The notes under the pieces were generated by a model. That model did no database searches. It saw only the letters and a list, made by a program, of their open reading frames with translations, and was not told the DNA's origin. From Methanoregula sp. PtaB.Bin085 (GTDB lineage: Archaea > Halobacteriota > Methanomicrobia > Methanomicrobiales > Methanospirillaceae), in the NCBI RefSeq assembly GCF_002067035.1, contig NZ_MVQB01000013.1, forward strand, positions 1-64,000: a stretch of 64,000 nucleotides of DNA, in the 5' to 3' direction. This document shows, in pieces, positions 16,847-39,097 of this stretch (the stretch's first letter is position 1; each line of letters opens with the position of its first letter). Made by a program: the position numbers and the translations under genes.

Positions 16847-17902
16847 ATGCCCAGAAAAGTACTCGTTACCGGCGGGGCGGGATTTATCGGCAGTAATTTC
16901 ATCCATTACCTCTTGGATAGATATGACGATATTTCCGTCATCAACCTCGATGATCTGACCTATGCCGGAAATCTGCGGAATCTGGCCGATCTTGAAAAGG
17001 ATCCCAGGTATTTCTTCATCCGTGAAAATATCTGTAATTTTCCCGGCTTGCAGACCGTTTTTAAAAAATTCGAGCCGGATTATGTCATAAATTTTGCAGC
17101 TGAATCGCATGTGGACCGCAGTATTCTCGATCCTGACATTTTTATCAGGTCGAATGTTCTTGGAGTTCAGAATCTGTTAAAACTGTCGTTGGATTGCGAA
17201 ATAGAAAGGATGATTCAGATATCTACGGATGAGGTGTATGGTTCACTGGGCGAATCCGGGGTTTTTACCGAGAAAAGTCCGCTCGATCCCCGCAGTCCGT
17301 ATTCCGCGAGTAAAGCCAGCGCTGACCTTTTAACTCTGGCATATTATTATACGTTCAATCTTCCGGTCAATATTACACGGTGTTCCAATAATTACGGCCC
17401 TTTCCAGTTTCCTGAAAAACTTATTCCCCTCACGATTCTTCATTGTCTCAAGGGAGAAAAAATCCCGGTGTATGGTGACGGCCTCAATATCCGGGACTGG
17501 ATCCATGTTGATGATCACTGTTCCGCTATCGATCGTGTTCTTACTGACGGTATTCCGGGTGAGATCTATAATGTTGGCGCACAAAATGAAATGACGAATA
17601 TCGAGATGGTGAATACAATTATCTGTGCTCTTAAAGAACTGCGCCCTGATTTACCTCTTACTGAAGATTCTATCGTTTTCGTTCCCGATCGGAAGGGGCA
17701 TGATCGAAGATATGCGATCGATCCGGAGAAGATACAAAAGACCCTCGGCTGGAAATCTCGTATGCCCGTTTCCGAAGGAATTAAAACGACTGTCGAATGG
17801 TACCTCAACAATGTAAACTGGCTGGAGTCAGTTATCAATGCAGAATACCTTCATTATTATTCAGTGAATTACCGAATAGGTAATCCCTTACCGAAACTAT
17901 GA
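16847..17902 (+). CDS. rfbB: dTDP-glucose 4,6-dehydratase
   Basis: This 351-residue extended SDR enzyme converts dTDP-glucose to dTDP-4-keto-6-deoxyglucose. The Rossmann motif TGGAGFIGSN lies at residues ~8-17, the catalytic tyrosine-lysine pair is in PYSASKASADLL, and STDEVYGSLGE and NNYGPFQFPEKLIPLT are signatures of the RmlB/RffG group. It heads a rightward operon with rfbA, wecE and a wecD-like gene, so its product most likely feeds dTDP-Fuc4NAc. The next gene overlaps by ATGA (17899-17902). Confidence 0.93.
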   Translation: MPRKVLVTGGAGFIGSNFIHYLLDRYDDISVINLDDLTYAGNLRNLADLEKDPRYFFIRENICNFPGLQTVFKKFEPDYVINFAAESHVDRSILDPDIFIRSNVLGVQNLLKLSLDCEIERMIQISTDEVYGSLGESGVFTEKSPLDPRSPYSASKASADLLTLAYYYTFNLPVNITRCSNNYGPFQFPEKLIPLTILHCLKGEKIPVYGDGLNIRDWIHVDDHCSAIDRVLTDGIPGEIYNVGAQNEMTNIEMVNTIICALKELRPDLPLTEDSIVFVPDRKGHDRRYAIDPEKIQKTLGWKSRMPVSEGIKTTVEWYLNNVNWLESVINAEYLHYYSVNYRIGNPLPKL

Positions 17903-18627
17903 ACAGCAGAGAAAAATCAAACGACTGGCTCGATTCGATTAAATGCCATTTCAAGCGATATCCGGAACTGTATGGCGTTATTATCTGGACGATTTCGCCT
18001 GTATTCGTTTTCCGAAAAGATACTTACAGAAAATTACTGAAGTATATACGTCCCGGAAATAACAAAACAATTCTAAATATCGGTTCAGGTCCGTTCAAAC
18101 TCGAAGACGATATAATCAATATTGATATCGCGGCATATGAAAACGTGAACATTGTGGCTGATGCGATGTATCTGCCGTTCAGAACCAATTCCATTGACGC
18201 TGTCATCACTATCGTAGTCCTTGAGCATGTCCCCGAGCCTGAAAGAGTTGTTGACGAAATGCATCGAATACTCAAACCCGATGGCATCATCTACACGCAC
18301 GTCCCATTTCTTCAGGGTTATCACGCCAGTCCTCATGACTATTCACGGTGGACCGCGTCTGGTGTGGTTCAGCTCCACAGGAAATTTAATACAATTGAGA
18401 CAGGTGTCGGTGCCGGTCCTTCATCCTCTCTTGTCTGGATTCTGACAGAGTGGTTTTCGATGGTTTTTTCTTTCAGGAGTGTTATCCTGTACCGGTTTTT
18501 TTTCATCATATTCACAATCCTGTTGTGGCCTGTAAAGTTTTTCGATCTCATCCTGATTGGAAATCCAATGGCTCAGAATATTGCCTCGACGTTTTATTAT
18601 CTTGGGAAGAAGGTGCCGAATTCATGA
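17899..18627 (+). CDS. Class I SAM-dependent methyltransferase
   Basis: This 242-residue methyltransferase has a variant motif I ILNIGSGPFKLE (~56-67), motif II NIDIAAYENV and motif IV ITIVVLEHVPEP, of the Methyltransf_11 type. A hydrophobic C-terminal stretch (VILYRFFFIIFTILLWPVKF) suggests membrane association, as expected for a lipid-linked glycan substrate. It is tied to rfbB and rfbA by ATGA overlaps on both sides, so it is an integral part of the dTDP-sugar operon. The modified position is unknown. Confidence 0.82.
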   Translation: MNSREKSNDWLDSIKCHFKRYPELYGVIIWTISPVFVFRKDTYRKLLKYIRPGNNKTILNIGSGPFKLEDDIINIDIAAYENVNIVADAMYLPFRTNSIDAVITIVVLEHVPEPERVVDEMHRILKPDGIIYTHVPFLQGYHASPHDYSRWTASGVVQLHRKFNTIETGVGAGPSSSLVWILTEWFSMVFSFRSVILYRFFFIIFTILLWPVKFFDLILIGNPMAQNIASTFYYLGKKVPNS

Positions 18628-19367
18628 AGGGAGTAATTTTAGCGGGAGGGACGGGAACACGATTGTACCCGTTGACTAAAGTGACAAACAAGCATCTGTT
18701 ACCAGTAGGCAAAGAACCGATGATCTTCAATCCTGTGAGGCAGCTCATCAGCGCCGGTATAACTGAAATTCTTGTCGTAACGGGAAAAGAGCATATGGGC
18801 GAAATCGTCAGGTTATTGGGGAGCGGTTGTGATTTTAACTGCAGCTTTACATTCCGCGTCCAGGAGACTGCCGGCGGCATTGCCGATGCTCTTGCCCTTG
18901 CGAGAGTATTTGCCAACGGTGACCGGATTGTAGTGATTCTGGGAGATAATATCCTCACCCACAGCATCCGAAAATATGTAGAATCCTTTCAGAAACAACC
19001 TTCCGGTGCGAAGGTGCTCCTGAAAAGGGTTGGGGATCCGGAACGATTCGGTGTTGCCGCTCTCGACGAGCAGAAAAAAATGATCATTCAGATCGATGAA
19101 AAACCTGAAAAACCCAAAAGCGATTATGCCGTGATAGGTGTATATATGTATGATTTCCGTGTGTTTGACGTCATCCAAACCATCAAACCATCTGATCGGG
19201 GAGAACTCGAGATCACATCGGTAAACAACTGGTATGTCGAGCATGATGCGTTGACTTATAATATGATTAATGGTGAGTGGACGGATGCCGGGACCTTCGA
19301 ATCACTCATGCAGGCTAACCGCATGCTGTTTGCTGTCAACAATATTATCCAGGATGATGAGGTTTGA
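18624..19367 (+). CDS. rfbA: Glucose-1-phosphate thymidylyltransferase
   Basis: This 247-residue nucleotidyltransferase makes dTDP-glucose, the first step of the pathway. The N-terminal signature KGVILAGGTGTRLYPLT is followed by KHLLPVGKEPMI, GDNIL and the late DAGTFESLMQAN; the length is that of short RmlA-like enzymes. The start is fixed by the ATGA overlap at 18624-18627; an upstream in-frame extension to 18450 would cover the methyltransferase in another frame. Next step: RfbB (16847-17902). Confidence 0.92.
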   Translation: MKGVILAGGTGTRLYPLTKVTNKHLLPVGKEPMIFNPVRQLISAGITEILVVTGKEHMGEIVRLLGSGCDFNCSFTFRVQETAGGIADALALARVFANGDRIVVILGDNILTHSIRKYVESFQKQPSGAKVLLKRVGDPERFGVAALDEQKKMIIQIDEKPEKPKSDYAVIGVYMYDFRVFDVIQTIKPSDRGELEITSVNNWYVEHDALTYNMINGEWTDAGTFESLMQANRMLFAVNNIIQDDEV

Positions 19368-20524
19368 TGCAGGTCCCTTTCACCCGCCCCTATCTTGCCG
19401 GCAACGAACTTCTTTACATAGAGGACGTACTTACATCGGTGTGTCAGGGGGGGCACATCTCTGGTGATGGAAAATACTCTCGTATGGTCCACGAAACCAT
19501 CGAAAAGACCTTTGGCGCCCGTAAAGCGTTATTGACAACATCCGGGACAACGTCACTTGAACTGGCTACGCAGCTTCTGGATCTCAAATTTGGTGACGAA
19601 GTGATCGTCCCGTCATATACGTTCTCATCAACAGTGAATCCAGTTGTTCTTGCAGGTGCAAGGCCCGTATTCGCTGATATCTGTCCTGACACCCTGAATA
19701 TTGATCCGGATGAGATCCGGCGGAAAATCACAAAAAAAACCCGTGCCATTTTTCCCGTTCATTATGGGGGGGTATCCTGCGCTATGGACGAGATCATGGA
19801 GATCTCAGCCGACCATAAGCTTAGCGTCGTCGAAGATGCCGCCCAGGCTGTCAATGCGAGATACCGGGGCAGGTACCTTGGAACGATCGGCGACTTTGGA
19901 TGCTATAGTTTTCACGAAACCAAGAACTATACCTGCGGTGAAGGTGGTGCGCTTCTCATAAATTCTGAGGATCCTGAGATCCTCGAGAGAGCAGAAGTAC
20001 TTCGGGAAAAGGGGACGAACCGGAACAAGTTTGACCGGGGAGAAGTCGATAAATATACTTGGGTTGACATCGGATCGAGTTACCTTCCCAGCGATATACT
20101 TGCCGCCGTCCTCTACGCTCAGCTGGAAAAACTTGATGAAATCCAAAAGATGCGTATGGAGATTTGGGACACGTACAACAGGGCATTCAAACCGTTTGAG
20201 GAACGCGGAATGATCCGGTTGCCGGTTGTGCCCCGCTATGCGGAACATAACGCACACTTGTTTTATATAATATTCCGTGATGAAATGACGCGGGATTTGG
20301 TTATGTCCCGGCTCAAGAGTTCGGGGATCCGAGCGGTTTTTCATTACGTGCCTCTCCACTCCTCCCCAATGGGTTTGAAAATGGGAAGTCGGAAAAAAGA
20401 CCTTCCGGTAACCGAAGAAATGAGCAGCAGGCTGTTGAGATTCCCGATATATGCGGGAATGGAACATGAGATATTGGAATATATCGTTCAAAAAACCATC
20501 AGTATTCTTAAGGAGTTGGAATGA
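19367..20524 (+). CDS. wecE: dTDP-4-amino-4,6-dideoxygalactose transaminase (WecE/RffA type)
   Basis: This PLP-dependent DegT/DnrJ/EryC1-family aminotransferase has 385 residues. It matches WecE closely along its length: PFTRPYLAGNELLYI, TTSGTTSLELA, VPVSYTF-like VPSYTFSSTVNPVV, VEDAAQAV, the PLP lysine in SFHETKNYTCGEGGA, EKGTNR and WVDIGSSYLPSD. It converts dTDP-4-keto-6-deoxyglucose to dTDP-4-amino-4,6-dideoxygalactose. The ATG at 19367 overlaps the rfbA stop by one base (TGATG); a TTG three bases earlier is less likely. The WecE-like EKGTNR and IGSS segments argue against perosamine- or quinovosamine-type aminotransferases. Confidence 0.9.
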   Translation: MQVPFTRPYLAGNELLYIEDVLTSVCQGGHISGDGKYSRMVHETIEKTFGARKALLTTSGTTSLELATQLLDLKFGDEVIVPSYTFSSTVNPVVLAGARPVFADICPDTLNIDPDEIRRKITKKTRAIFPVHYGGVSCAMDEIMEISADHKLSVVEDAAQAVNARYRGRYLGTIGDFGCYSFHETKNYTCGEGGALLINSEDPEILERAEVLREKGTNRNKFDRGEVDKYTWVDIGSSYLPSDILAAVLYAQLEKLDEIQKMRMEIWDTYNRAFKPFEERGMIRLPVVPRYAEHNAHLFYIIFRDEMTRDLVMSRLKSSGIRAVFHYVPLHSSPMGLKMGSRKKDLPVTEEMSSRLLRFPIYAGMEHEILEYIVQKTISILKELE

Positions 20525-20525
20525 T

Positions 20526-21326
20526 ATGCCGGATTATGACGCGATAAAAAAACATTGGGACGATCTTTCGGTCAATGAAGGTTCCTATAAGGCCTCTTGG
20601 GACGATTTTTATATGCTGCAGAAGGAACTATCTGAAATATGTCGCCATATTCAGGGCAACGAATCGATCTGCGACATCGGGTGCAATAACGGCTACTGCG
20701 ACTTCAGGCTCCTATCTCAGTATGACAAGATCCAGATTACGGGTATTGATTTTTCAGAGAAATTAATTTCAGAAGCCAGTACACAGCTGGAGAAATCTGG
20801 ATTCAAGGGCAGGGCATCGTTTTTTACCGGAAATATTCTTAATCCTGACACATTTCCGCAGCAAAAGTTCGATCTTGTCCTGATTAAAAGAGTACTCATC
20901 AATCTTCTGGATGAGAACGATCAGATCCTCGCGCTTAAAAATGTTCAAACTCTGTTGAATAGTAACGGACGGATAATTCTGTCCGAAGCCATTGAAGAAA
21001 ACTGGGAGCGGCTCAATAGGCTCAGGAGGGAATTCGGGCTTGAAGAGCTAAAACAACCATGGCATAACCGGTATCTTTCAAAATCTGTTATTGATTTCAT
21101 TTATACGAATTTCGAAGTTGAAACCGATGATGATTATTCCAGTTCCTATTACATCATTTCGCGTGTGTTCCATCCATGGATAAAGAAGATCAACAATGAT
21201 AAACAACTGGAATATGTCAGCGAAATCAATCGAATGGCATCCATGGTTCCCAATTTCGGAGATTATGGTACTCAGCGGCTCCTGATATTATCCCTAAAAG
21301 AAATCGAGAGGAATCATGCAGAATAA
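20526..21326 (+). CDS. Class I SAM-dependent methyltransferase
   Basis: This 266-residue methyltransferase has motif I ICDIGCNNGYCDFRLL (~43-58), motif II ITGIDFSEKLI and a motif-IV-like DLVLIKRVLINLLD. The true start is the ATG at 20526, one base past the wecE stop and preceded by aaggagttgg; the longer frame from 20451 lies inside wecE. It overlaps the next glycosyltransferase by 11 bases. Its place between amino-sugar synthesis and the ArnC-like enzyme suggests it methylates the deoxyamino sugar or a neighbouring residue; this is inference. Confidence 0.82.
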   Translation: MPDYDAIKKHWDDLSVNEGSYKASWDDFYMLQKELSEICRHIQGNESICDIGCNNGYCDFRLLSQYDKIQITGIDFSEKLISEASTQLEKSGFKGRASFFTGNILNPDTFPQQKFDLVLIKRVLINLLDENDQILALKNVQTLLNSNGRIILSEAIEENWERLNRLRREFGLEELKQPWHNRYLSKSVIDFIYTNFEVETDDDYSSSYYIISRVFHPWIKKINNDKQLEYVSEINRMASMVPNFGDYGTQRLLILSLKEIERNHAE

Positions 21327-22254
21327 CACCGAGTATTCTATTGTTGTTCCGGTTTTTAACAGTGAGAAATCCCTCGAGGAACTGCTTACACGCCTCAATC
21401 GTCTCTTCCATCCCATATCAGAATCGTATGAAATTATTCTTGTCGATGATCGAAGTATAGATTCCAGCTGGGATATTCTCAAGAGACTTCATGCCGACAA
21501 TTCAAAAATTAAAATAATCAGGCTTATACGGAATTTCGGGCAGCATAACGCATTGCTTGCCGGGTTGAATATCTGCACTGGAAAAATCATTATCACACTG
21601 GACGATGACCTTCAGCATCCCCCAGAAGAGATACCGAAGCTCATTGCGAAATTAAAAGAGGGTTTTTTCGTAGTTTATGGAAAATATCCCCCGGAAAATG
21701 ACAGCCGTATTGAAAATTTTTTAAGTCGGCTGTACCAAAAGATCATCCATATAATTCTGGATATCCCCCAAGAAATTTTTATCTCGAGTTTTGTAATTTA
21801 CCAAAGAGAGATTGTTCAGAATATTATCACAATAAAAAGTTCCTACCCTTTTTTACCAGCTATGACAGTACGATCTGCACCGGTCAGCAAAATTACGAAT
21901 GTGGATGTTGCCCATCAGAAACGTAAAAAGGGCTCTTCCAACTATGGATTAATAAGATATTTCAAATATTCGCTGAACCTTATAATCAATTACTCTTCGA
22001 TGCCCCTGGTTTTTGTCGCTTCTTTAGGAATCCTTCTGAGTATTTTCAGCATCTTTTTTGGATTCTGGATAATTATCCAGAAAATTATCAACCCCTCATA
22101 TGGTATAATGGGCTGGAATTCCCTAATGGTAGCAATTTGTTTCCTTGGTGGGGCAATACTCATGTCCATGGGGATCCTTGGGGAATACCTTCGCAGGATC
22201 CTTGCCGAAACCTCCTATGGCCAGCAATATGTGATTAGTGAAATAGATGCATAA
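21316..22254 (+). CDS. ArnC-like GT2 polyprenyl-phosphate glycosyltransferase
   Basis: This 312-residue GT2 enzyme strongly resembles ArnC: YSIVVPVFNSEKSLEELL, the conserved RNFGQHNALLAGLN, TLDDDLQHPPEEIPKL (DxD-type metal site) and two C-terminal helices ending in MGILGEYLRRILAETS. ArnC moves a 4-amino-4-deoxy sugar derivative from a nucleotide onto polyprenyl phosphate in the cytoplasm. Here the likely donor is the dTDP-4-amino/acetamido-4,6-dideoxygalactose made by the upstream genes. Two small EmrE-like proteins and a GT-C enzyme follow, paralleling ArnEF and ArnT. Confidence 0.85.
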   Translation: MQNNTEYSIVVPVFNSEKSLEELLTRLNRLFHPISESYEIILVDDRSIDSSWDILKRLHADNSKIKIIRLIRNFGQHNALLAGLNICTGKIIITLDDDLQHPPEEIPKLIAKLKEGFFVVYGKYPPENDSRIENFLSRLYQKIIHIILDIPQEIFISSFVIYQREIVQNIITIKSSYPFLPAMTVRSAPVSKITNVDVAHQKRKKGSSNYGLIRYFKYSLNLIINYSSMPLVFVASLGILLSIFSIFFGFWIIIQKIINPSYGIMGWNSLMVAICFLGGAILMSMGILGEYLRRILAETSYGQQYVISEIDA

Positions 22255-22280
22255 TTATTATTCATGAAACAGGATCCACA

Positions 22281-23269
22281 ATGACGGTCGATATGATGGA
22301 TTCCGGCGATATCGAGGCGTTATCTGACATCTCTTCCAGGTACCCTTTCAAACCCTATTACTATTATTCCCGGTACCGAAGTTCAATTGGACGATATATG
22401 ATCGCAGATATCAAGCAGCTAATGAACGATCGAAATACTTATTCCCTGTGCCTGAGGGAGCAGGGGGAAATAACCGCGTTTGCCGTCATTAAAAAATCAT
22501 CAACCGAATCGCTTCATTTCAAGAAAAAGATGTTCGCGGTTGAGTATATCTTTTCTATGGGTTCGTTCCGAAATTCAGTCACTAATAAAAAAATGATGCT
22601 GGATTTTTTCAGGTCGGAAATCATGCCAGACTATGATATGATCTCCGCCAGGGTGGATTGCGGGGATTTATCAACCATCCATATCCTCGAACAGGAATCA
22701 TTCAGAATGATGGATTGCCTGATTACCTATTCCTCCGCAACGTTTCGGAAAAAAATACCTGCAGCAGCCAACCCTATATCATTCGGTTATTTGAGAAATC
22801 TGATCGCGAAAAAATCATCAGGATTGCCAAAGACTCATTCACCCTTGATCGCTTCCACTCGGATCCGAATTTTCCGAAGGCTGAATGCGATACCTTATAC
22901 GCGGGTTTCGCAAAAGATGCAATGCGAGGTATCGGTGCGGATGTTATCATGATAGCCGAAACGGAAGGAGACGTCGTGGGTTTCATAACTATCGAGAAGG
23001 AAAACCATAATCTGGCAAGATACGGAATTAAAATTGGTACATTCGTACTCAATGCAGTCTCACCTCAGTATCGGAATCTTGGTATCTACTCCGCATTGAT
23101 AAAAAACAGTATTCGGTTTATCAGTAACTATGCAAATCTGGTTGAAGTCAGAACACAGGCCAATAATGTGCCGGTCTTCCATACACTTCTGAAAAACGGA
23201 TTCCATCCAGTAAGAACCCAGATTACCTTCCATCATTGGAATCCGATAACGACATCCATAACCTATTAG
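22281..23269 (+). pseudogene. WecD/RffC-like GNAT acetyltransferase interrupted by a one-base frameshift
   Basis: Two overlapping frames together read as one ~329-residue protein. The first (from ATG 22281) gives an N-terminal domain ending ...HILEQESFRMMDCLITYSSATFRKK; the second continues ...QPYIIRLFEKSDREKIIRIA into a GNAT domain with DRFHSDPNFPKAECDTLYAGF, VGFITIE and SPQYRNLGIYSALI (acetyl-CoA loop). They meet at a run of seven A (22749-22755); one extra A, or a -1 slip, joins them. The two-domain layout matches WecD, which acetylates dTDP-4-amino-4,6-dideoxygalactose to dTDP-Fuc4NAc. It may be a real mutation, phase-variable slippage, transcriptional slippage or a sequencing error; the sequence alone cannot decide. 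The second frame has its own ATG at 22658 but no clear ribosome-binding site. Confidence 0.78.
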
Positions 23270-23309
23270 TTTTGAAAAAAAATGAATGAATGAATTCGAG
23301 GATTTGAGT

Positions 23310-23678
23310 ATGAGCCGGAATTTCTATATCATATTCATCATTCTTTCAATTCTGTTTCAGGCATTCAGCGGAATATTTGGGAAATATGCAGCGCTGTCAC
23401 TCATCCCGTCAGGTCCGCTGGCAATCTTTTCGAATAGTTTTTACCTCCTTTCGATCGGATGCATGATCCTTCAGGCAATTGTCTGGCAGGTTGCACTCAC
23501 ACAATACGATATCTCGCTCGTCTATCCTTTTCAAAGCATAACAATGATCGTTGTTCTTTTCCTGTCCTTTCAATTATTCGGCGAGACAATTTCCGTATTC
23601 AATATCACCGGAATCGCAATAATTTTTATGGGAATATATTTTTTAAGCCGTGAGATCCCAGGAGGAATAAAGCAATGA
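23310..23678 (+). CDS. Small EamA/SMR-type transporter subunit, ArnE/ArnF-like (first of pair)
   Basis: This 122-residue protein has four predicted membrane helices. The start chosen is MSRNFYII at 23310, which begins just before the first helix; an upstream ATG at 23286 adds eight polar residues. FGKYAALSLIPSGPL in the first half and LTQYDISLVYPFQSIT are typical of half-size DMT transporters such as ArnE/ArnF, which move aminoarabinosyl-polyprenyl phosphate to the outer face. It overlaps its partner by ATGA (23675-23678), so the two are probably made together and act as a heterodimer flipping the lipid-linked sugar made by the ArnC-like enzyme. Confidence 0.78.
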   Translation: MSRNFYIIFIILSILFQAFSGIFGKYAALSLIPSGPLAIFSNSFYLLSIGCMILQAIVWQVALTQYDISLVYPFQSITMIVVLFLSFQLFGETISVFNITGIAIIFMGIYFLSREIPGGIKQ

Positions 23679-24013
23679 CAATGCTTTATTATGGTATTGC
23701 CGGATGTTCAATACTGTTAACCGGGCTTGCCCAGGTTCTTTTAAAAACTGGCGCCACACAAAAAAGCAGTGACGAGAACATTTACCTGAACAGGTTTACT
23801 CTCAGTGGTTATTCAATTCTGCTTCTCGTAACAATTCTGACGGTTTACTCCCTACAGGGCATCGAACTGAAAACATTCTACGCAGCTGCGTATTCTCTTG
23901 CAATTGTTATTGTGACCGTGCTTTCCGGGATTTTTCTCAGGGAACATTTATCCCGGAACAAACTTACAGGGATCTTACTGATCCTCATCGGGATCATTGT
24001 TTTTAACCTTTAG
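23675..24013 (+). CDS. Small EamA/SMR-type transporter subunit, ArnE/ArnF-like (second of pair)
   Basis: This 112-residue, four-helix protein resembles half an EamA transporter: GLAQVLLKTGA at the end of helix 1 and AAAYSLAIVIVTVLSGIFL before the final helix LTGILLILIGIIVFNL. It is coupled to the preceding gene by a four-base overlap. Each member alone is too short for a full ten-helix DMT permease, which supports a heterodimer. The C-terminus ends right after helix 4, as in SMR proteins. Confidence 0.78.
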   Translation: MTMLYYGIAGCSILLTGLAQVLLKTGATQKSSDENIYLNRFTLSGYSILLLVTILTVYSLQGIELKTFYAAAYSLAIVIVTVLSGIFLREHLSRNKLTGILLILIGIIVFNL

Positions 24014-24086
24014 TTCATGAAAGAATGAGCATTATTTTATTTGATCCATTTCCAAATAGATTAATGAATTTTTCCGGAGTGCCTTG

Positions 24087-26285
24087 ATGGATTCTGAAAA
24101 ATCCCCTTTGATTGTTGAACTCTTAACCTATGTTGTTGCTTTTTTCAGTTCAATTATCATCGCCTCAGTCATATTGCACCTCTGGGCAGCAGATCTGGCC
24201 GTTCCATTCTCGTATTCCGGGGATGTCAATTCAATCGGGCTCTGGATAAAAAGTGTCATCGATGAGGGATGGTATTTCCATAATAGTCAGGTCGGGATGC
24301 CTTTCGGCCTCGATATGCTGGATTTTCCCTTCAATGCCACGTTTGAATTTCTGATAATCAAATGTGTTGCATTGTTTTCATCGGATTACGCCGTTATTCT
24401 GAATATTGTCTATCTGGCGTCGTTCCCTCTCACGACGCTGACTTCAGTATTTGTCTTCAGACAGCTGAAAATATCCCGCACGATTGCAGTTTTTGGAGGC
24501 CTTCTCTACACATTTATCCCATACCATTTCCTCAGAGGTGAGGATCATTTTCTCTTCTCGCAGTATTATTTACTGCCACTGGTTATTCTGGTAACAATCT
24601 GGATTGCCGGGAACGAAGATTTGTTGGGGAAAGGCCGGAATATGCCAAACTGGAAAATTATCATCTCTGTTTTCACATGTATTTTGATCGGTCTGACCAC
24701 CGTGTACTACACGTATTTTTCCTGTTTTTTCCTGCTTGTCGGAGGATGCTATACATTTTTTGTATACCATCAAAAAAGAAATTTTTTTACCGCAATATCC
24801 TTCATTGTCATCGCGACTGTAATCATGTTTCTGTGCCTAACCCCGGCCCTGATCCATCAGCTTGAATATGGTCCGAATCCCACAGCGTGGCAGAGGACAC
24901 CGGGTGATGCAGAAATCTATGGATTGAAGATTATCCAGCTGCTTCTCCCGATTCACGACCATTTCATTCCTACGTTCGCGGCTGCATCCGATAATTACCA
25001 GCAATACGCACCCCTGGTGAATGAAAATGCAACATCTTCCCTGGGCCTGCTTGGGAGTATTGGATTTCTGCTTTTGCTGTGGGGATTGCTCATCGGAAAA
25101 TTACCGTTTGCTGGAATCTTTGGCACTGAGATACGGTCCGAATTCCAGTCCCTTTTCATAAAGTTGTCAGTCCTGAATATTTCAGCAGTACTTCTGGCAA
25201 CAATAGGTGGATTTGGGGCCATAATTGCCTATGTATTCCCGTACATCCGTGGTTATAACAGGATAAGTGTTTTCATCTCATTCTTCTCAATCCTGGCGTT
25301 CATGATTTACCTGCAGATCATTTCCGATAAATACGGACATCGAAAGCATCTTACTGCAATATTCTTGATTGTCATTGTCTCTCTACTCATATTCGGTATC
25401 CAGGATATGTCAAATAGTCACTATGTCCCAGCCTATGACGCGATAAAAGCTGAATATCATTCTGACGATAATTTTGTCAGGCAGATTGAATCACATTTAC
25501 CAGAAGGTGCCATGGTATTCCAACTTCCCTACATGCAGTTCCTTGGTGGGGGCCTCCCGAATAAGATTTTTTATTACGACCCCCTGAAACCTTACCTTCA
25601 TTCCAGGTTCCTTCGGTGGAGCTATGGTACCATGATCGATCGGTCCGGGGATTTGTGGCAGAGGGAAATCTCTCAAAGACCTCTCGACTCCCTGGCAGAG
25701 TCATTGAGTTATTCTGGTTTTTCAGGAATCTGGATTGATACCTTTGGGTACAAGAATCCTGAAGAAGTCGTTGCCCGCCTTAAACTGATACTGGGTACGG
25801 AGCCGATATCGAGCGAAAATGGCCGGTACGTTTTTTTCGATATGCGGCAATACAACAAAAAACTGAGAGAGCATCTCACCGATCAGGAATTCCTGAAAAA
25901 ACAATATCTCACACTCAACCCGATAATCCCCCGCTGGGGGCAGGGATTCTCTGTTTTTGAGAGCGACCCGGATAATAACTGGCGATGGGCTTCATCTTCT
26001 GGTACCGTTTTTTTTGATAATCCCACACCGGAAAACAGGGTGATACTTATTAATACAACCATACGGACCGGATGGTCGGAAAATGCCAATGTTACAATAC
26101 AATCCAGTGAGTTCTCAGACACCCTCGCTGTTAATAATCTCGGTACGTTGTATGAGCGGAAGATTATCGTCCCTCCCGGGAGCTATTCCGTAACATTCCA
26201 TTGCGATGCTGCAAGAGTACCTGTTTCAGATCCACGAAACCTCGTTTTCAGAATGGACAATTTCAAAACGCTGGAGATCATGTAA
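24087..26285 (+). CDS. GT-C-type multi-spanning membrane glycosyltransferase (putative)
   Basis: This 732-residue protein has roughly ten to eleven membrane helices in its first ~440 residues and a ~290-residue extracytoplasmic C-terminal part. An early acidic loop (SYSGDVNSIGLWIKSVIDEG, residues ~50-70) and the PYHFLRGEDHF segment fit a polyprenyl-phosphate-sugar-dependent GT-C fold, where loop acidic residues are catalytic. It is the last gene of the dTDP-sugar operon and would be the natural counterpart of ArnT. The start is ATG 24087 with CGGAG seven bases upstream; a TTG at 24084 is possible. No specific GT family can be assigned with certainty. It ends 18 bases from the convergent 26304-28430 gene. 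Confidence 0.65.
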   Translation: MDSEKSPLIVELLTYVVAFFSSIIIASVILHLWAADLAVPFSYSGDVNSIGLWIKSVIDEGWYFHNSQVGMPFGLDMLDFPFNATFEFLIIKCVALFSSDYAVILNIVYLASFPLTTLTSVFVFRQLKISRTIAVFGGLLYTFIPYHFLRGEDHFLFSQYYLLPLVILVTIWIAGNEDLLGKGRNMPNWKIIISVFTCILIGLTTVYYTYFSCFFLLVGGCYTFFVYHQKRNFFTAISFIVIATVIMFLCLTPALIHQLEYGPNPTAWQRTPGDAEIYGLKIIQLLLPIHDHFIPTFAAASDNYQQYAPLVNENATSSLGLLGSIGFLLLLWGLLIGKLPFAGIFGTEIRSEFQSLFIKLSVLNISAVLLATIGGFGAIIAYVFPYIRGYNRISVFISFFSILAFMIYLQIISDKYGHRKHLTAIFLIVIVSLLIFGIQDMSNSHYVPAYDAIKAEYHSDDNFVRQIESHLPEGAMVFQLPYMQFLGGGLPNKIFYYDPLKPYLHSRFLRWSYGTMIDRSGDLWQREISQRPLDSLAESLSYSGFSGIWIDTFGYKNPEEVVARLKLILGTEPISSENGRYVFFDMRQYNKKLREHLTDQEFLKKQYLTLNPIIPRWGQGFSVFESDPDNNWRWASSSGTVFFDNPTPENRVILINTTIRTGWSENANVTIQSSEFSDTLAVNNLGTLYERKIIVPPGSYSVTFHCDAARVPVSDPRNLVFRMDNFKTLEIM

Positions 26286-28491: not shown

Positions 28492-29880
28492 TCATCTTTG
28501 AAACAGGAAACTGCCGATACGCTGGAACAGAGTCCGGGCTGGCTTCATCAGAGAGAATTCCCTGAGTCGTTCTACTTCGGCCTGCCGGTAGACCGCTGCG
28601 AACCGGCTTTCAGATCCGGAAGGGAGAACCTCGTCAAGGTCTCGTTCATATCTCCATATGTATCGGGTAGGAAAATCCCCCTTATGGATCCGAAGGTCCC
28701 GGTTTACAAAAAGTGAGATCTCTCTTGCGATCTTTTTGGGATCATGTTTTTCTCTTACATACCGATGTGCCATGCATCCCAGCCTGTACCTGCGATCCGC
28801 ATCGTGGATCAGTTTTACAAGTGTATCTTTCAGATCCTGTTCTTCCTTAAGCGGAACAGGAGAAATTTTCTCCACGACCCCGTCGGGAAGTTCAGAGAAC
28901 CAGGCAGTATCCGTTACGATGCATGGTTTGCCGGCAGTCATTGCCTGAAGGACTGTTGCAGATGTTTCACCCATTGAGGGATTGCGGAGGTTCACTACAA
29001 TATCTGAACAGGCTAATAACCGTTCATAATCCTCTCTTAAAACAAATCCCGTTTTCTTAATCGTATCGTCCAGGAAACCATCAATATAATTCCCTTCACC
29101 GACCATCAGGTACTGAATGTCGGGAGCTGATTCTTGGATAATCCTCTTGACTGCACAGATAATTTCGGCATTCCGTTTCGTTGGTGCAATGTACCCAAAA
29201 GATGCAATGAGAAGGGTTCCGGGACGGATCCCATACTGTTTCCTGGTGCGTGCCAGGTCTCTTGGCGGGTATTCAAATCTCATGTTCGCATAATTTACCT
29301 GATTTATTCTTGCGATTTTTTCTGGCGTACATCCAAATTCAACCAATAGTTTTTCGGCATATTCGGAATGCACGATGATTCCGTGTGCCTTGGAAATGAT
29401 CCCTTGGATCATCGGGAAGTATTCCGGATGGGCAAACTGGAGAGGTGGAGTCTTCGACTTCAGGATCCTTTTTACCTTATGAATTCCGCGCTCCCCAAAA
29501 ATCTGATAAAATTCCCGAATATACCCCTCCCTGTCTCGTTTATAATCCAGATAGTAGCCGGTCACAAGGAAATAGAGAACGAAATCGTGGAGTATAACAT
29601 GACCCGGGTGTTGGAGAAAAACATCATACATCTCCGAATGAAATTCAGGATTATTTCCCATGTTGAAGAGAATGCATGGGTAATCGCTAAGCTTGGACAG
29701 GGATGTAGTCCCGTTGCGATAATTGATACTCGTGAATTTTTTCGCCAGTGATTTTTCAGGAGTTCGGGTCACCCAGAGATCAATATCAAAATATCGGGCA
29801 AGATGAGGCAGGAGTGCCTCGGAATAATCCGAGATACCACTTTTCTGTGGGGGCAGTGGGCTAAAATATGCAAGTTTCAT
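28492..29880 (-). CDS. GT4 family glycosyltransferase (WbpX-like N-terminus)
   Basis: This 462-residue GT-B enzyme opens with MKLAYFSPLPPQKSGISDYS, the signature of a GT4 subgroup that includes D-rhamnan polymerising enzymes. The C-terminal nucleotide-sugar domain has IASFGYIAPTKRN, YLMVGEGNY and the E-x7-E region near NLRNPSMGETSATVLQAMTAG (glutamates shared with the family). It overlaps the upstream GT4 by four bases (29877-29880). With its two GT4 neighbours and gmd/rmd it forms an A-band-like rhamnosyltransferase set; individual linkages cannot be inferred. Confidence 0.85.
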   Translation of the reverse strand: MKLAYFSPLPPQKSGISDYSEALLPHLARYFDIDLWVTRTPEKSLAKKFTSINYRNGTTSLSKLSDYPCILFNMGNNPEFHSEMYDVFLQHPGHVILHDFVLYFLVTGYYLDYKRDREGYIREFYQIFGERGIHKVKRILKSKTPPLQFAHPEYFPMIQGIISKAHGIIVHSEYAEKLLVEFGCTPEKIARINQVNYANMRFEYPPRDLARTRKQYGIRPGTLLIASFGYIAPTKRNAEIICAVKRIIQESAPDIQYLMVGEGNYIDGFLDDTIKKTGFVLREDYERLLACSDIVVNLRNPSMGETSATVLQAMTAGKPCIVTDTAWFSELPDGVVEKISPVPLKEEQDLKDTLVKLIHDADRRYRLGCMAHRYVREKHDPKKIAREISLFVNRDLRIHKGDFPTRYIWRYERDLDEVLPSGSESRFAAVYRQAEVERLREFSLMKPARTLFQRIGSFLFQR

Positions 29881-30929
29881 GATACGAGTTGCCGGATGAC
29901 GTAATCCCAGTTGATATTCAGATTCTGTATTAATTCATATCCCTGGTTGCCGAGGTTCTTCGCGTGCTCGCGGTCGTTATACAGGGAATCCATCACGAAG
30001 GCGATTTCCTGTGGCTCTGGCTTGATAATAAACCCGTTTTTCTCATTCACGAATTCAGAAGGTCCTCCGGCATCAGTATGTATGATAACGGGCTTTCCTG
30101 AATAAAACGATTCAAGGGTGATGTACCCGTAGTCTTCCTGATAAGCACCGAAATAGACCCCAAGGGATTTCGCGTAGAGATCAGCTTTTTCCTCTTCTGA
30201 AACATATCCCCTGATTTCAAGACGGGAAAGGGTTCCGTCAGTTTTTGCTCGTTCCCTGATATCATTGATTGTCCTCTGGTCGCCGGTTCCTGCTATAATT
30301 ACCCGGATCCGTGTCTTACAGAATTTGAGAGCACTTACCAGCAGGATCTGGCGTTTTATCTTATCTATCCTGCTCGGATAAAAGATGTAATCCTGGGAAG
30401 TTTCTGCACGGAAAATCTCCGGATTTTTCGGAGGGGGATACAATGGAATTGAACTTATGGAATTAAATTGCATGAGCCGGTCAGAAACCGTCTTGGAGAT
30501 CGTGAATATTTTTCTGCTCTTGGGAAGGAACCTGTTATCGCAATCAACGATAAGCTTCCGGACTTCATCACCGAACTCCATTGCGTGGAGATCACCATGA
30601 TCCGTACCCCATAACTCATATGCTTGCCGATGCTGATGACACAGCCAGAGAACTTTATTCTCATGATTGGCCAGATAAACCGGGAATTTTAAAGCGATAA
30701 CGCGGTCGATTTTTTCTCCATTTACTTCTGTGACATCGATCTTCCGGGCAACCATCATGGAATCAACAATCTTTTCAGGAGGATACCATTTGAAGGGGAT
30801 CGTGATGATATCAGCATCATGTCCCCTTTTTTTCAATTCATCGCGGAGAGATTCTGCAAGCACTTCAGCCCCACCCCTGATGAAAGGAACCTGAACGTTT
30901 AATATACCGATTTTCATGGGAATTTTCAC
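29877..30929 (-). CDS. GT4 family glycosyltransferase
   Basis: This 350-residue GT-B enzyme has an N-terminal acceptor domain with VPFIRGGAEVLAESL and a donor domain with FYPSRIDKIKRQILLV, VIIAGTGDQRT and YQEDYGYITLESFYSGKPVI (conserved E-x7-E pair). The ATG at 30929 overlaps the stop of the upstream GT4 by ATGA; MKIGIL at 30917 is an alternative. It is the middle of three consecutive translationally coupled GT4 genes. Confidence 0.87.
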   Translation of the reverse strand: MKIPMKIGILNVQVPFIRGGAEVLAESLRDELKKRGHDADIITIPFKWYPPEKIVDSMMVARKIDVTEVNGEKIDRVIALKFPVYLANHENKVLWLCHQHRQAYELWGTDHGDLHAMEFGDEVRKLIVDCDNRFLPKSRKIFTISKTVSDRLMQFNSISSIPLYPPPKNPEIFRAETSQDYIFYPSRIDKIKRQILLVSALKFCKTRIRVIIAGTGDQRTINDIRERAKTDGTLSRLEIRGYVSEEEKADLYAKSLGVYFGAYQEDYGYITLESFYSGKPVIIHTDAGGPSEFVNEKNGFIIKPEPQEIAFVMDSLYNDREHAKNLGNQGYELIQNLNINWDYVIRQLVS

Positions 30930-32035
30930 GATCCTGTCATTTGAAATGCGGTTAAAAATTTTTTCTGAATTATTTCCTGAGAGAATCTGGATGTGACATT
31001 TTCGCTACCATATTTCCGACAAAAATCCTGAATTTTTTCATCAGAAAATACAGTATATAATGCAGATGCAGAAAAATCGTAATCGAAAGTATCGAACATA
31101 ATCTGCTTATTTCCGATGGTTTCCAGCAGAGCCGTACCGCTGTGCGCAATGACCGGCAACTCGAATTTTTGTGCTTCGATTATCGGTACGCAGAATCCTT
31201 CATGTTCACTCATGCATAAAAATTCATCACAGGATATATAATATGACTTAAGATCTTTCTCCGAGATCTTATCGATAAACGAAATGCTGTCCTTGAGATT
31301 ATATTTCCTTATAAGGTCGAGAAGCATAATATTATACAATTGTAATTCCTGTTGATCCATCGACCCGACTAACCACAAATGAATTTTATTATCATAATTT
31401 TCTTTATAGTTCCTGAGTGTTTTCATCAGATGAATATGTCCCTTGTTGGGCGCTACCCTACCAACAAACAGCACGTTATTACAATTATTCCCAATCAGAG
31501 AATCGATAAGTGAAAAATTTGGCTCGACATTTTTCAGTTTTTCCAGTTGGGTGAATGGTGGAATAGTAAGACTGAATTCCGGTTTCAGTCCTCCTGCCTT
31601 GAGCTGACGGGAATTGAATTCTGAATCGCCCCACCAGAAAGAATGACAAAACTTCTTCAGCAACCTGTCTGTTTGTCTCATACCCTGAAGACATATTTCA
31701 TAATAGAAACTCGAATATTTTTCAAAAAAATGAGGTGGTGTGATGTTGTGGAATTTAAAAAAAGTTTTTCCTTTGAATTTGTTAAGGATTTCTTCACCCT
31801 CTTTCCAGTAAACACTGTGATGGTATATAAGGACAGAGTTCTTGTTTTCCATGAATCTGTCATGTTGCCTTGAATTTAACTGGAAACCCTTCAGGTCATT
31901 CGTCAGATTTTCAGCGATTAATCCAACTTCATATCCTTGGTTGCGGAGAATGGAATACATCCCAAGGATATCGTTACCAATTGCATCGCCATCAACAATT
32001 GTCTGATGGGCAATAGCGATAGTTGGCAGGGTCAT
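30926..32035 (-). CDS. GT4 family glycosyltransferase
   Basis: This 369-residue GT-B enzyme has LFVGRVAPNKGHIHLMKTL and the donor-site CMSEHEGFCVPIIEAQKFELPVI. The N-terminal IVDGDAIGNDILGMYSILRN is characteristic of a subgroup found in polysaccharide clusters. The gene is AT-rich, with several homopolymer runs, relative to the housekeeping genes after 44 kb. It follows the coiled-coil methyltransferase gene by 13 bases and overlaps the next GT4 by four. Confidence 0.86.
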   Translation of the reverse strand: MTLPTIAIAHQTIVDGDAIGNDILGMYSILRNQGYEVGLIAENLTNDLKGFQLNSRQHDRFMENKNSVLIYHHSVYWKEGEEILNKFKGKTFFKFHNITPPHFFEKYSSFYYEICLQGMRQTDRLLKKFCHSFWWGDSEFNSRQLKAGGLKPEFSLTIPPFTQLEKLKNVEPNFSLIDSLIGNNCNNVLFVGRVAPNKGHIHLMKTLRNYKENYDNKIHLWLVGSMDQQELQLYNIMLLDLIRKYNLKDSISFIDKISEKDLKSYYISCDEFLCMSEHEGFCVPIIEAQKFELPVIAHSGTALLETIGNKQIMFDTFDYDFSASALYTVFSDEKIQDFCRKYGSENVTSRFSQEIIQKKFLTAFQMTGS

Positions 32036-32048
32036 TCTGATGGTCTCC

Positions 32049-33488
32049 TTATTTCGTACAGATTATGGCGTAGTCCTGAGCACCAAACAGGAGTGAATTT
32101 AAACGATCAATGTTTTGGTTATATAATTCTGCATTTCTTCTTGCAGTATCATCCACCTGTAGATCTGTTTCGACTTTTTTCAGTCTCTCATCATCGGGAA
32201 CCGGTGAAGAGAATATCTTTTCGCATATTCTGAACCCGGCAGCATTCAGCAGGTATTCCAGCGTTTCAGGATGAACCGGTCTCGTATGTGTAAGGTCAAT
32301 ATAAAAATTCACAAACGAGATAAATGATAACGGATTTACTGTTTCAATAACTATTGTCGAGCCAGCTTTCATCTTCCGGTAACAAAGCGAAAGCAACCGC
32401 AGCAGATAGGCTGGATCCAGATGTTCAACAACCTGATCCAGGAATATTCCATCAAGATAATTGTCATCTAGGTTCTCAAGGTAGGATATCGCATCTGCTT
32501 GAATTACGTTCAGCTCACGTGAACGACAGAATTCAACCATATCAGTATCGATGTCAATTCCGACTCCCCCGATCCGATTTTCTTTGAGTATTTCAAGAAA
32601 TTCACCTCGTCCGCAACCAATATCGAGAACAAGGGTACTGTTTTTAAAGTAGTGTAGGAATTTCGTCTGTCGTTGTTTTATTACGTCCCGCGAACCCCGG
32701 AATTTTTCTTCAAAATGCAAATAGTTTGTGTCTGCCAGCGCATCTGGTATCAAATAAGGATCGTTTTGTGTGAAATTTTCTTGCATCCGCTTTTCAAGAG
32801 TTTGAACATTTCCTGTCTGAAATATTCGACGCTTTTCAAGCCGTGAAAATTCGTCCAGAACGCATGAAGCAATGCTCTCCCGGATTTTTTTATTGTTTAT
32901 TTCTTCTTTCAGTGAAATTTTCTGGATCAATTCCGCTTCACACAGCCCAATTTTTCTGGTCAATTCATCGTCTGTTTGAGAAATTTTTTGTATTAATTCC
33001 AATCCCTGGAGGGAGATCTTTTCAGCTATTTCCTTTTCATATTGTGTCATCCAACGGCGTAACGTATCATCGTGATGACGGATCCTTCGATCGGTCTCGA
33101 TGCAATTTTGCACCACGATATTAATTATCCGCGTAGAGCAAGCATTGAACTCAGTCTGGCGGGAGATAACCGGATCAATATAACGGCAGACCTCCCCATG
33201 AATCAGATTCCGGCATTGTATTAGGATATACCCGATGTAGGGGCGATGCGAGGTGATGAAATAACTGGTGTTGTGAATATCCCACATCGTATTGAGGAGG
33301 GACAGATCCCGCTGGAATGAGTCGTCGGACAGTTCCATAAAATGTATCGCATCTGATGCAACGGTCTGATTCTCATGGTTGGAGGGAGTTCCGGGAGTAT
33401 TGCTGCAACGGATATTCTGAAATATCTGGGCATTAATCCGTTCGATAGTCATCTCATCGCCGAAGGGTTCTTTTGTGTCATTATCCAT
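32049..33488 (-). CDS. Methyltransferase with central coiled coil, WbdD-like chain-terminator candidate
   Basis: This is a ~479-residue protein (start MDNDTKEP at 33488; ATG at 33500 also possible). Residues ~150-250 are a long heptad-rich coiled coil with repeated units such as ELIQKISQTDDELTRKI. The C-terminal ~220 residues are a class I methyltransferase: LVLDIGCGRGEFLEIL (motif I), GVGIDIDTDMVEFC, GIFLDQVVEHLDP and DLTHTRPVHPETLEYLL. It lies directly behind a Wzt carrying a C-terminal glycan-binding domain, the place occupied by the chain-terminating methyltransferase WbdD in O8/O9a-type systems. There the coiled coil acts as a length ruler; here it precedes rather than follows the catalytic domain. 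No kinase domain is visible. Confidence 0.75.
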   Translation of the reverse strand: MDNDTKEPFGDEMTIERINAQIFQNIRCSNTPGTPSNHENQTVASDAIHFMELSDDSFQRDLSLLNTMWDIHNTSYFITSHRPYIGYILIQCRNLIHGEVCRYIDPVISRQTEFNACSTRIINIVVQNCIETDRRIRHHDDTLRRWMTQYEKEIAEKISLQGLELIQKISQTDDELTRKIGLCEAELIQKISLKEEINNKKIRESIASCVLDEFSRLEKRRIFQTGNVQTLEKRMQENFTQNDPYLIPDALADTNYLHFEEKFRGSRDVIKQRQTKFLHYFKNSTLVLDIGCGRGEFLEILKENRIGGVGIDIDTDMVEFCRSRELNVIQADAISYLENLDDNYLDGIFLDQVVEHLDPAYLLRLLSLCYRKMKAGSTIVIETVNPLSFISFVNFYIDLTHTRPVHPETLEYLLNAAGFRICEKIFSSPVPDDERLKKVETDLQVDDTARRNAELYNQNIDRLNSLLFGAQDYAIICTK

Positions 33489-33506
33489 TTTTCCCACCAC
33501 GTGTTG

Positions 33507-34748
33507 TCAGTCTGGAATTGATTCAATTTCAATCGAAGGATGCAAATCAGTAATCCCCAGGTATACGGGAAGATTCTTGTTTTGTAAAACCCTGAGTGTA
33601 ATAATATCGTTGAGCCGGAGCAGGTACTCCTCGAAGGAATTTACTGCTCTTCCGCCATTGTCGATGGCGATAGTGATTAAGTACTCATCTGGCTGCAACA
33701 AAAGCCTGAATTTTACCGATACATCATACCATTTACCTGCCATCACAGGATTATTTTTCTGGTTCAGGAGATGAGTGTTTGTACCAAAGATCGATACCCC
33801 GTATCGGTTTCGGATTAATATCCCGAATACTGGTTCTTCAATATCCCGTAGACAACGGAAGGAATAATTAATAATGATCTCATCTTCACCATAAACATGT
33901 GTCACAGGCTGTTTTTTACAGTCAAGAATCCTTATTGCACCGAATTCAATCTTATTTGTTGAAATATTTGCATGATTTTTCTCAGGTTTTTTTTCATCAT
34001 TATGGATTACAATTCTTTCCCCCGAATGAGAACTTAAACAGATTTGTGTAATATACAAATCAATAATTCCTCTCGGAATCCCGAAAGACACCATTTTTCC
34101 ATGATTGAGGAGTATGGCATAGTCGCATAGTGTAGTCACCGCATTCATATCATGCGATACGAACACAATCGATCCACCAGACTCCCGGAACTCCTGGATT
34201 TTCCTCATGCACTTCTGCTGGAAATATGCATCCCCGACGGATAACGCTTCATCGACAAGGAAACATGTAGGCTCAGCATGGATCGCGATAGAAAATGCCA
34301 GCCGCATTACCATGCCGGAGGAGTATGTCTTGATGGGTTCGTAGATGAATTCCCCGAGCTCGGAGAAATCGATGATTGTCTGTTTCTTCCGGTCAATCTC
34401 ATCACGGGTCATACCGAGAAGAGTACCGTTCATGTAAATGTTTTCAATGCCGGTCATCTCATAGTTAAAACCGGTCCCCAGTTCGAGAAGACCCGTGACT
34501 TTACCGTCAACGGTGATCGAACCGCTATCAGGGATTACAATTCCTGAGAGTATTTTCAGTAGTGTTGACTTCCCTGCACCATTATCTCCAATGATCCCGA
34601 GTGTCTGGCCGGGACCGACCTCGAAGGATATATTGTCGAGTGCGATGAAGTCCTTGTGGTACGATTTTCGGAACAGGATTTCCCGGAGCCGATCGGCAGG
34701 CGAATGATAAAGTTTGAATTTCTTTGAAATGCCTTCGACTTTTATCAT
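33507..34748 (-). CDS. wzt: Polysaccharide ABC exporter ATPase with C-terminal glycan-binding domain
   Basis: This 413-residue Wzt has an ATPase (residues ~1-250) with Walker A GDNGAGKSTLL, YSSGMVMRLAFSIA signature region and FLVDEALSVGD Walker B. A ~150-residue beta-rich C-terminal domain (EIIINYSFRCLRDIEEPVFG, GVSIFGTNT) matches the Wzt_C domain that recognises the modified non-reducing end of the finished chain. The start is MIKVEGISKKF at 34748; the earlier ATG at 34772 only adds eight residues. It is paired with the Wzm at 34837. The second Wzt of the locus lacks this domain. Confidence 0.92.
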   Translation of the reverse strand: MIKVEGISKKFKLYHSPADRLREILFRKSYHKDFIALDNISFEVGPGQTLGIIGDNGAGKSTLLKILSGIVIPDSGSITVDGKVTGLLELGTGFNYEMTGIENIYMNGTLLGMTRDEIDRKKQTIIDFSELGEFIYEPIKTYSSGMVMRLAFSIAIHAEPTCFLVDEALSVGDAYFQQKCMRKIQEFRESGGSIVFVSHDMNAVTTLCDYAILLNHGKMVSFGIPRGIIDLYITQICLSSHSGERIVIHNDEKKPEKNHANISTNKIEFGAIRILDCKKQPVTHVYGEDEIIINYSFRCLRDIEEPVFGILIRNRYGVSIFGTNTHLLNQKNNPVMAGKWYDVSVKFRLLLQPDEYLITIAIDNGGRAVNSFEEYLLRLNDIITLRVLQNKNLPVYLGITDLHPSIEIESIPD

Positions 34749-34836
34749 GGAAAACGGTCCCCCCATTGACATGCCATGTCAGGTTTTATCACATATTGCC
34801 GCTTTTCTGATCGAGTACCGGAATACTTAATGACGA

Positions 34837-35604: not shown

Positions 35605-35678
35605 ACGAGGATTCCCTTCATGCTGATTTCCCGTTCGAAATTTATCCCGTGCATGGTTTTCCAAGATTCCGATCTCGA

Positions 35679-35692
35679 TTTTATAATAATTG
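35679..35692 (-). promoter_or_regulatory. Candidate TATA box upstream of the wzm-wzt-methyltransferase unit
   Basis: The 180-base gap 35605-35784 contains, read leftward, aattattataaaat (35692-35679), a good TATA-like element ~75 bases before the wzm start. Gaps of 80-180 bases around gmd and rmd contrast with the tight packing elsewhere and suggest that the long leftward run has internal promoters. Confidence 0.3.
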
Positions 35693-35784
35693 GCGTTGGT
35701 AATACAAATTCCTTGGCAGGCTTCACCGGAGGGAATCAGGATTTCATATCACCGGTTTTTTCATAACCCGATATTCGGCAGGCC

Positions 35785-36852: not shown

Positions 36853-36868
36853 GTCATTTCACCAAAAA

Positions 36869-39017: not shown

Positions 39018-39097
39018 CTGCGGCGTTCCCTGAATAATATCATTACGTTCTCTGATTTATAACGGGCGGGATAGACGGTATTCGTGTCGATTATTAT

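Follow-up and report, generated by a model that had tools for sequence, protein, structure and literature searches.

The window analysed here, the first 64,000 nucleotides of contig NZ_MVQB01000013.1 of Methanoregula sp. PtaB.Bin085 (archaeal assembly GCF_002067035.1, 2.9 Mb, 98% complete), contains ten tightly spaced genes on the + strand at 16847-26285. We consider it probable that they encode a three-component extracytoplasmic glycosylation system for a 4-amino-4,6-dideoxyhexose, formed by a polyprenyl-phosphate sugar synthase, a flippase of two small multidrug resistance (SMR) proteins and a GT-C glycosyltransferase. The evidence is drawn from sequence and comprises the gene identities at family level, the gene order, its conservation and the lack of competing enzymes in the genome. 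The genes are the following:

16847..17902, + strand: rmlB/rfbB, dTDP-glucose 4,6-dehydratase (TIGR01181, 445.5 bits; cut-off 365.1)
17899..18627, + strand: S-adenosylmethionine (SAM) methyltransferase 1, MT1 (Methyltransf_11, Pfam PF08241, 52.9 bits)
18624..19367, + strand: rmlA/rfbA, short 247-aa glucose-1-phosphate thymidylyltransferase (TIGR01208/TIGR01207)
19364..20524, + strand: wecE, dTDP-4-keto-6-deoxyglucose 4-aminotransferase, predicted to yield dTDP-Fuc4N (PRK11706, TIGR02379)
20526..21326, + strand: SAM methyltransferase 2, MT2 (PF13847, 71.1 bits; start placed by homology)
21316..22254, + strand: GT2 polyprenyl-phosphate sugar synthase of the GtrB/ArnC/PgfS type (PF00535, 119 bits)
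22281..23269, + strand: wecD-like GNAT N-acyltransferase, split at a run of seven A (A7, 22749-22755) by an apparent -1 frameshift (PRK10975)
23286..23678, + strand: SMR protein 1 (SMR1), putative ArnE-like flippase subunit (ArnE/ArnF matches; 4 predicted transmembrane helices)
23675..24013, + strand: SMR protein 2 (SMR2), putative flippase subunit (ArnE matches; its profile matches EmrE structures)
24084..26285, + strand: GT-C-like glycosyltransferase with a C-terminal carbohydrate-binding-like beta-sandwich at about residues 623-733 (fold comparison of an AlphaFold2 model)

From these genes a route may be predicted. RmlA and RmlB would provide dTDP-4-keto-6-deoxyglucose, which WecE would aminate to dTDP-4-amino-4,6-dideoxygalactose (dTDP-Fuc4N), and the WecD-like GNAT, provided that its gene is functional, would acylate the amine, methylation being also possible. 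On the cytoplasmic side of the membrane, the GT2 would load the sugar onto polyprenyl (dolichyl) phosphate, giving polyprenyl-phosphate-Fuc4N(R), where R is the putative N-substituent. SMR1 and SMR2, as an ArnE/ArnF-like heterodimer, would flip the lipid-linked sugar outward, and the GT-C enzyme would use it to decorate a surface glycan, most likely the neighbouring polymer exported by an ATP-binding cassette (ABC) transporter.

Consecutive genes are separated by -4, -4, -4, 1, -11, 26, 16, -4 and 70 bases, which is an operon-like layout. In agreement, the original prediction, made from the letters alone, had placed RfbB, RfbA, WecE, the GT2, the SMR pair and the GT-C enzyme in a single operon, and all of them are present there; it had overlooked the two methyltransferases and the frameshift of the wecD-like gene. 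In a scan with consensus promoters and terminators, promoter counts equalled those of shuffled sequence, the consensus being ill-suited to archaea. The region has a G+C content of 42-47%, whereas the outer parts of the window lie mostly at 50-60%; low local G+C is common in laterally acquired glycan loci, and a similar history may be suspected here.

WecE exceeds two curated cut-offs (PRK11706, 541.6 bits against 375; TIGR02379, 478.8 bits against 434.85). The closest solved relative of the archaeal WecEs is E. coli WecE (6blg/4piw, E 3e-162 with the archaeal profile), followed by perosamine synthase and ArnB (E about 1e-66 to 1e-62). The best models for RmlA, TIGR01208 and TIGR01207, gave 233 bits, under both cut-offs, and short forms 66-84% identical to it occur in loci L041, L042, L046, L047 and L048. 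Homologs of MT1 are present in matching clusters (61% identity in L047, 55% in L046), and this enzyme possibly methylates a sugar. MT2 lies between wecE and the GT2 gene, as does a 58% identical gene at the equivalent position in L046; against solved structures it gave generic matches only and no close relative. In Fundidesulfovibrio (L115, 8275-12172), consecutive genes encode relatives of both methyltransferases, the GT2 and WecE; the two methyltransferases may thus move together with the module.

Family searches of the whole genome found a single RmlB above cut-off (the operon copy), no match to RmlC (PF00908; present in 11 of 14 control genomes) and no RmlD (TIGR01214) above cut-off, leaving WecE as the only recognised sink of dTDP-4-keto-6-deoxyglucose. 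For the same reason, dTDP-L-rhamnose was ruled out as the purpose of rmlA and rmlB. WecF (PF07429) had no match in the genome either; the genome thus lacks the known cytoplasmic enzyme that uses dTDP-Fuc4NAc, and a route like that of enterobacterial common antigen (ECA) was discarded.

The association of WecE with the GT2 is conserved. Among 232 genomes of the class, WecE (over cut-off) was found in 11 and the GT2 clade (>300 bits) in 10, both together in 9 (Fisher p 1.2e-13), and in all nine the two genes lie on one contig and one strand, at distances of 0.7-11 kb. As a control we took the window's GT-C family, which is also present in 10 genomes, with WecE in just one of them, the window's own. 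GT2, SMR1 and SMR2 adjoin one another in 9 of the 10 genomes with the GT2 clade, the tenth (G130) stopping at a contig edge; in the window's own operon the wecD-like gene intervenes between GT2 and SMR1, and in Methanosarcina sp. fen_51 the order is wecE, GNAT, GT2, SMR1, SMR2. In G426, a genome from farther away in the phylum, wecE adjoins a more distant GT2; the same cluster (L155, 9533-12214) carries a second, fragmentary wecE (91 aa) close to the full one. Also, the profile of the archaeal GT2s was run against 84,980 species genomes, and the best 80 loci were nearly all bacterial. Of these 80, 41 have within 6 kb a WecE homolog (identity 38% or more, in most cases 45-57%), which is on the same strand in 39; by BLAST, 13 of the 41 also have a WecD-like GNAT and 10 have SMR proteins. 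A search for the synteny wecE-arnC-arnE/F-GT-C had been suggested as a check: the wecE linkage and the GT2-SMR-SMR order were indeed recovered, but the GT-C gene is not a constant member.

The GT2 has the features of GtrB/DPMS-like enzymes, that is, a GT2 domain, C-terminal transmembrane helices and a conserved DDD motif, with D96-D98 invariant in all six archaeal members. It had been called ArnC-like, and the polyprenyl-phosphate sugar synthase type holds, but not a special proximity to ArnC: the curated models PgfS and ArnC gave 178.9 and 176.0 bits, both below cut-off (529 for ArnC), and against the Protein Data Bank the profile matched GtrB sll0501 (210 bits, spanning residues 3-308) and ArnC (202 bits). 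Being equidistant from ArnC, GtrB and PgfS, the GT2 had its putative donor assigned from the neighbouring genes alone. This equal similarity leaves room for a different reading, in which Fuc4N is used in the cytoplasm by another transferase, in ECA or O-antigen style, and the GT2, SMR pair and GT-C enzyme serve, for example, glucose or mannose and have only the operon in common with the Fuc4N genes. GT4 enzymes with no assigned donor are found nearby, and in genome G116 the GT2-SMR-SMR triad stands beside RmlA, RmlB and a different aminotransferase. We regard such cytoplasmic use as rather unlikely, since WecF is absent, 9 of the 10 genomes with the GT2 clade also have WecE, without exception on the same strand, and the linkage recurs in 41 of the 80 best GT2 relatives across phyla although WecE itself is rare (11/232 genomes of the class, 1/14 controls). 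A WbqC-family protein (PF08889) is encoded immediately upstream of the GT2 gene in L147 (1252-1941, scanned) and, by sequence similarity, in L145 (9720-10415).

Regarding the predicted flippase, all six archaeal SMR1 members match ArnE (best 3.4e-10) and ArnF, and all six SMR2 members match ArnE (best 1.9e-8). The curated ArnE and ArnF cut-offs (92 and 99) were not reached by the window proteins, SMR1 giving 25.9 bits with ArnE and SMR2 18.4 bits with ArnF. The pair had been described as ArnE/ArnF-like, which fits two adjacent genes of which the first is ArnE/F-like and the second a weaker SMR match. The scores of SMR2 with EbrA, EbrB and MdtI are about equal to that with ArnF, as would be expected if the SMR proteins were exporters of drugs or cations that have nothing to do with the glycan genes and are placed there by chance. 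We find this very improbable in view of the contiguity with GT2 in 9 of 10 genomes, where the SMR genes overlap or touch each other, of the ArnE matches of 12/12 family members, and of the recurrence of SMR pairs beside GT2 and WecE in bacteria.

Neither Pfam nor NCBIfam gave a match for the GT-C protein, and a sequence search against solved structures returned nothing meaningful, fold comparison alone being informative. The AlphaFold model is of low confidence (mean predicted local distance difference test score, pLDDT, 57.4; predicted TM-score, pTM, 0.53), and all chains matched by its membrane part are GT-C enzymes. The comparison with AftA gave Z 17.1 (rmsd 5.6, 489 aligned), followed by oligosaccharyltransferases (OST/AglB/PglB, Z 12-15), AftD and ArnT (Z 11.8); for residues 623-733 the matches are carbohydrate-binding domains of the beta-sandwich type. 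AftA, AftD and ArnT use polyprenyl-phosphate sugars. The placement of a GT-C enzyme as last gene of the operon, as originally predicted, is thus backed by the modelled membrane fold. As a fixed core partner this family was rejected, given its 10 genomes in the class with WecE only in the window's own. The large membrane enzyme varies among loci, with an unnamed family in L040, L046 and L047 and DUF6044 in L039, L144 and L155, and we keep the GT-C protein of the window as a putative exchangeable last enzyme. Three-component systems have this architecture, in which the donor and flippase modules stay constant and the last enzyme is exchanged (PMC11127046, PMC7389260).

Several observations weigh against the three-component proposal. 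The GT2 is as close to GtrB and PgfS as to ArnC, SMR2 of the window resembles ArnE/F weakly, the GT-C model has a mean pLDDT of 57 and its family is not a fixed partner of WecE. The triad of G116 indicates that GT2-SMR-SMR is not restricted to WecE, as it pairs there with another aminotransferase. Finally, the wecD-like gene is frameshifted as assembled.

This last point bears on the N-substituent. The two overlapping GNAT frames, 22281-22952 and 22658-23269, join at CGG AAA AAA ATA, and joining them lifts the WecD score (PRK10975) from 42.9 bits for the 3' open reading frame alone to 57.6 bits (residues 111-309), which shows that they are one gene. WecD remains the best match, although the frame is broken and the joined protein, at 57.6 bits, stays under the cut-off of 219. 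Among the genomes of the class we found no intact copy, that is, no homolog of the split GNAT above 25% identity. The change of frame at A7 could be an assembly error, a pseudogene in decay or a slippage tract for phase variation. If the GNAT is a pseudogene and MT2 makes the final group, the sugar might be an N-formyl, N-methyl/dimethyl or other N-acyl Fuc4N, a possibility that overlaps with the three-component reading and to which we give roughly one chance in three. It would be in line with the split at A7 and with the variation among relatives: in G166, of the same genus, a formyltransferase lies between WecE and GT2 (L047; Formyl_trans_N, 73 bits), in G111 (L040) a hexapeptide acyltransferase occupies the corresponding place, and in the G121 cluster (L046) a MT2 homolog is present and no N-acyltransferase was recognised. 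On the other side, both GNAT halves are open and rejoin over a single homopolymer, a pattern expected from either misassembly or slippage, and WecD-like GNATs are also encoded in L039, L043, L050 and L144. The Arn pathway includes a formylation step, and for this likeness the formyltransferase of G166 was counted in favour of the proposed route. The original prediction of dTDP-4-acetamido-4,6-dideoxygalactose, and of a polyprenyl-phosphate-Fuc4NAc donor flipped and used outside the cell, can hence be kept in part. RmlB, RmlA and WecE account for the amino sugar donor and the outward route is the best-supported reading given the synteny, the co-occurrence and the lack of RmlC, of RmlD above cut-off and of WecF; the N-acetyl group is unsafe, with a frameshifted GNAT and an acyl enzyme that varies in relatives.

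Other enzymes were observed in similar loci. In gut bacteria, ATP-grasp ligases with a LAL_C2 domain are encoded immediately before the SMR pairs of WecE/GT2 loci (L117, 11621-12841; L112, 7952-9154) and possibly aminoacylate the 4-amino group. In other methanogens wecE is followed by an AcpS-like protein, an AMP-ligase and LuxE-/LuxC-like enzymes (acyl-protein synthetase, acyl reductase), assigned by reading and mutual similarity (L039, 4528-9816; L043, 5225-9712; L144, 16988-19900; L145, 3-3686).

Homologs of WecE adjacent to GT2 were found in Chloroflexota, Bacteroidota, Bacillota and others. On the GT2 tree the linkage shows no clustering (65 of 500 shuffles were as low) and therefore marks no single GT2 sub-clade. 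In unrooted trees, the 13 archaeal WecEs lie together on the same side of a branch (93/71), with bacterial sequences around them, and the archaeal GT2s form one clade except for G426; that of Woesearchaeota L077 falls elsewhere and was left out of the count. Judging from these sequences the module is mainly bacterial and not archaeal in origin, and the simplest account may be a transfer from bacteria followed by spread among methanogens. The idea of an archaeal peculiarity has to be abandoned, as bacteria commonly pair WecE with the GT2, in many cases together with a WecD-like GNAT and at times with SMR pairs. More tentatively, and with slightly less than even confidence, we propose that WecE, GT2, SMR pair and an interchangeable GT-C enzyme may represent an undescribed and widespread three-component class of bacteria and methanogens that adds 4-amino-4,6-dideoxyhexoses to surface polymers, in which the N-group is changed by replacing a single cassette gene (GNAT, formyltransferase, hexapeptide or other enzymes) and for which A7 might act here as an on/off switch.

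The most likely acceptor would be the polymer of the adjacent ABC-export cluster:

28492..40599, - strand: surface-polysaccharide genes, namely three GT4, a terminal methyltransferase, Wzt with a C-terminal domain, Wzm, a GT4, Gmd-/Rmd-like genes and a second ABC exporter (Wzt_C PF14524, 88.8 bits; the rest by reading)

This acceptor is supported by two bacterial loci and by the GT-C enzyme's carbohydrate-binding-like domain. In Roseburia sp. (L117) the wzt-MT-GT4-GT4-GT4 order of the window is followed by YfhO, wecE, GT2 and an SMR pair, and in Ottowia thiooxydans a single cluster holds wzm, wzt, a relative of the GT2, GtrA (PF04138, 61 bits) and a homolog (31%) of the window GT-C, the latter coming after GtrA and the GT2 relative. 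N-glycans linked by AglB are a possible alternative acceptor on account of an aglB-like gene in the window (44731-47385, by reading). The ABC-export cluster contains two complete-looking exporters of the Wzm/Wzt type within 7 kb (33507-35664 and 39098-40599, - strand); the first Wzt bears the Wzt_C domain and the second, of 240 aa, is too short for one.

The modules are individually known, WecE and WecD from ECA and GT2, SMR and GT-C proteins from Arn and Gtr systems. With the Arn pathway (ArnB-ArnA-ArnC-ArnE/F-ArnT, which places L-Ara4N on lipid A) the operon shares a 4-amino sugar nucleotide made by a DegT aminotransferase, a polyprenyl-phosphate GT2, an SMR-type pair, a GT-C enzyme and, in one relative (G166), formylation. 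It differs in the sugar, a dTDP-hexose predicted as Fuc4N and made by RmlA/RmlB/WecE instead of a UDP-pentose made by ArnA/ArnB, in a GT2 that is not specifically ArnC, and in a GT-C that is unlike ArnT in sequence and has a carbohydrate-binding-like C-terminal domain; moreover, archaea have no lipid A. The Gtr/CsbB-GtcA-YfhO systems for side chains of O-antigen and teichoic acid likewise join a polyprenyl-phosphate sugar synthase, a small flippase and an acceptor-specific GT-C that varies with the locus, and the Ottowia GT-C homolog adjoins GtrA. Some three-component systems of the Gtr type act on ABC-exported polymers (PMC11127046, PMC7389260). Their flippase, however, is GtrA or a MATE protein and not an SMR pair, and a Fuc4N(R) donor was not found reported for them in the literature searched. 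The Fuc4NAc branch of ECA (RffG/RffH/WecE/WecD/WecF) has in common RmlB, RmlA, WecE and a distant WecD-like GNAT; unlike it, the genome studied here has no WecF, and the sugar is predicted to be used extracellularly from a polyprenyl-monophosphate donor.

In Haloferax volcanii, AglD-AglR-AglS move a single sugar on dolichyl phosphate outward and add it to a glycan outside the cell (PMC3871713), with a mannose donor, an AglR akin to Agl15 (flippase-type) and not to SMR proteins, an N-glycan target and no Fuc4N genes. The earlier statement that no archaeal pathway of this kind is described should accordingly be narrowed: there is a precedent for the outward dolichyl-phosphate-monosaccharide route, but the combination of Fuc4N with an SMR-pair flippase, or of WecE and ArnC as one system, was not found in the open-access literature searched. 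A survey of 12,939 genomes had reported the Fuc4NAc pathway in Gammaproteobacteria only (PMC7725333). A methanogen WecE above the curated cut-offs and GT2-linked WecE in several bacterial phyla contradict that distribution, and suggest that outside enterobacteria Fuc4N may usually be used through an extracytoplasmic lipid-monophosphate route rather than the ECA route. This would offer a concrete function for uncharacterised GT-C-like families (that of the window and DUF6044), and makes a directly testable prediction on the surface sugars of methanogens of this order.

Other genes of the window deserve mention. Upstream of the operon, three successive secreted proteins (4511-13705, + strand) end in near-identical tandem repeats with a shared propeller-like C-terminus. 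The first of that region (4511-9709, + strand) is a 1732-aa secreted protein that by eye looks like a multicopper oxidase (HxH and HCH copper motifs) with PKD domains, which is unusual for a strict anaerobe, the genome being methanogen-like. Next to the operon (14330-15802, - strand), a membrane domain of the lysylphosphatidylglycerol (LPG)-synthase type (PF03706) is fused to a methyltransferase domain.

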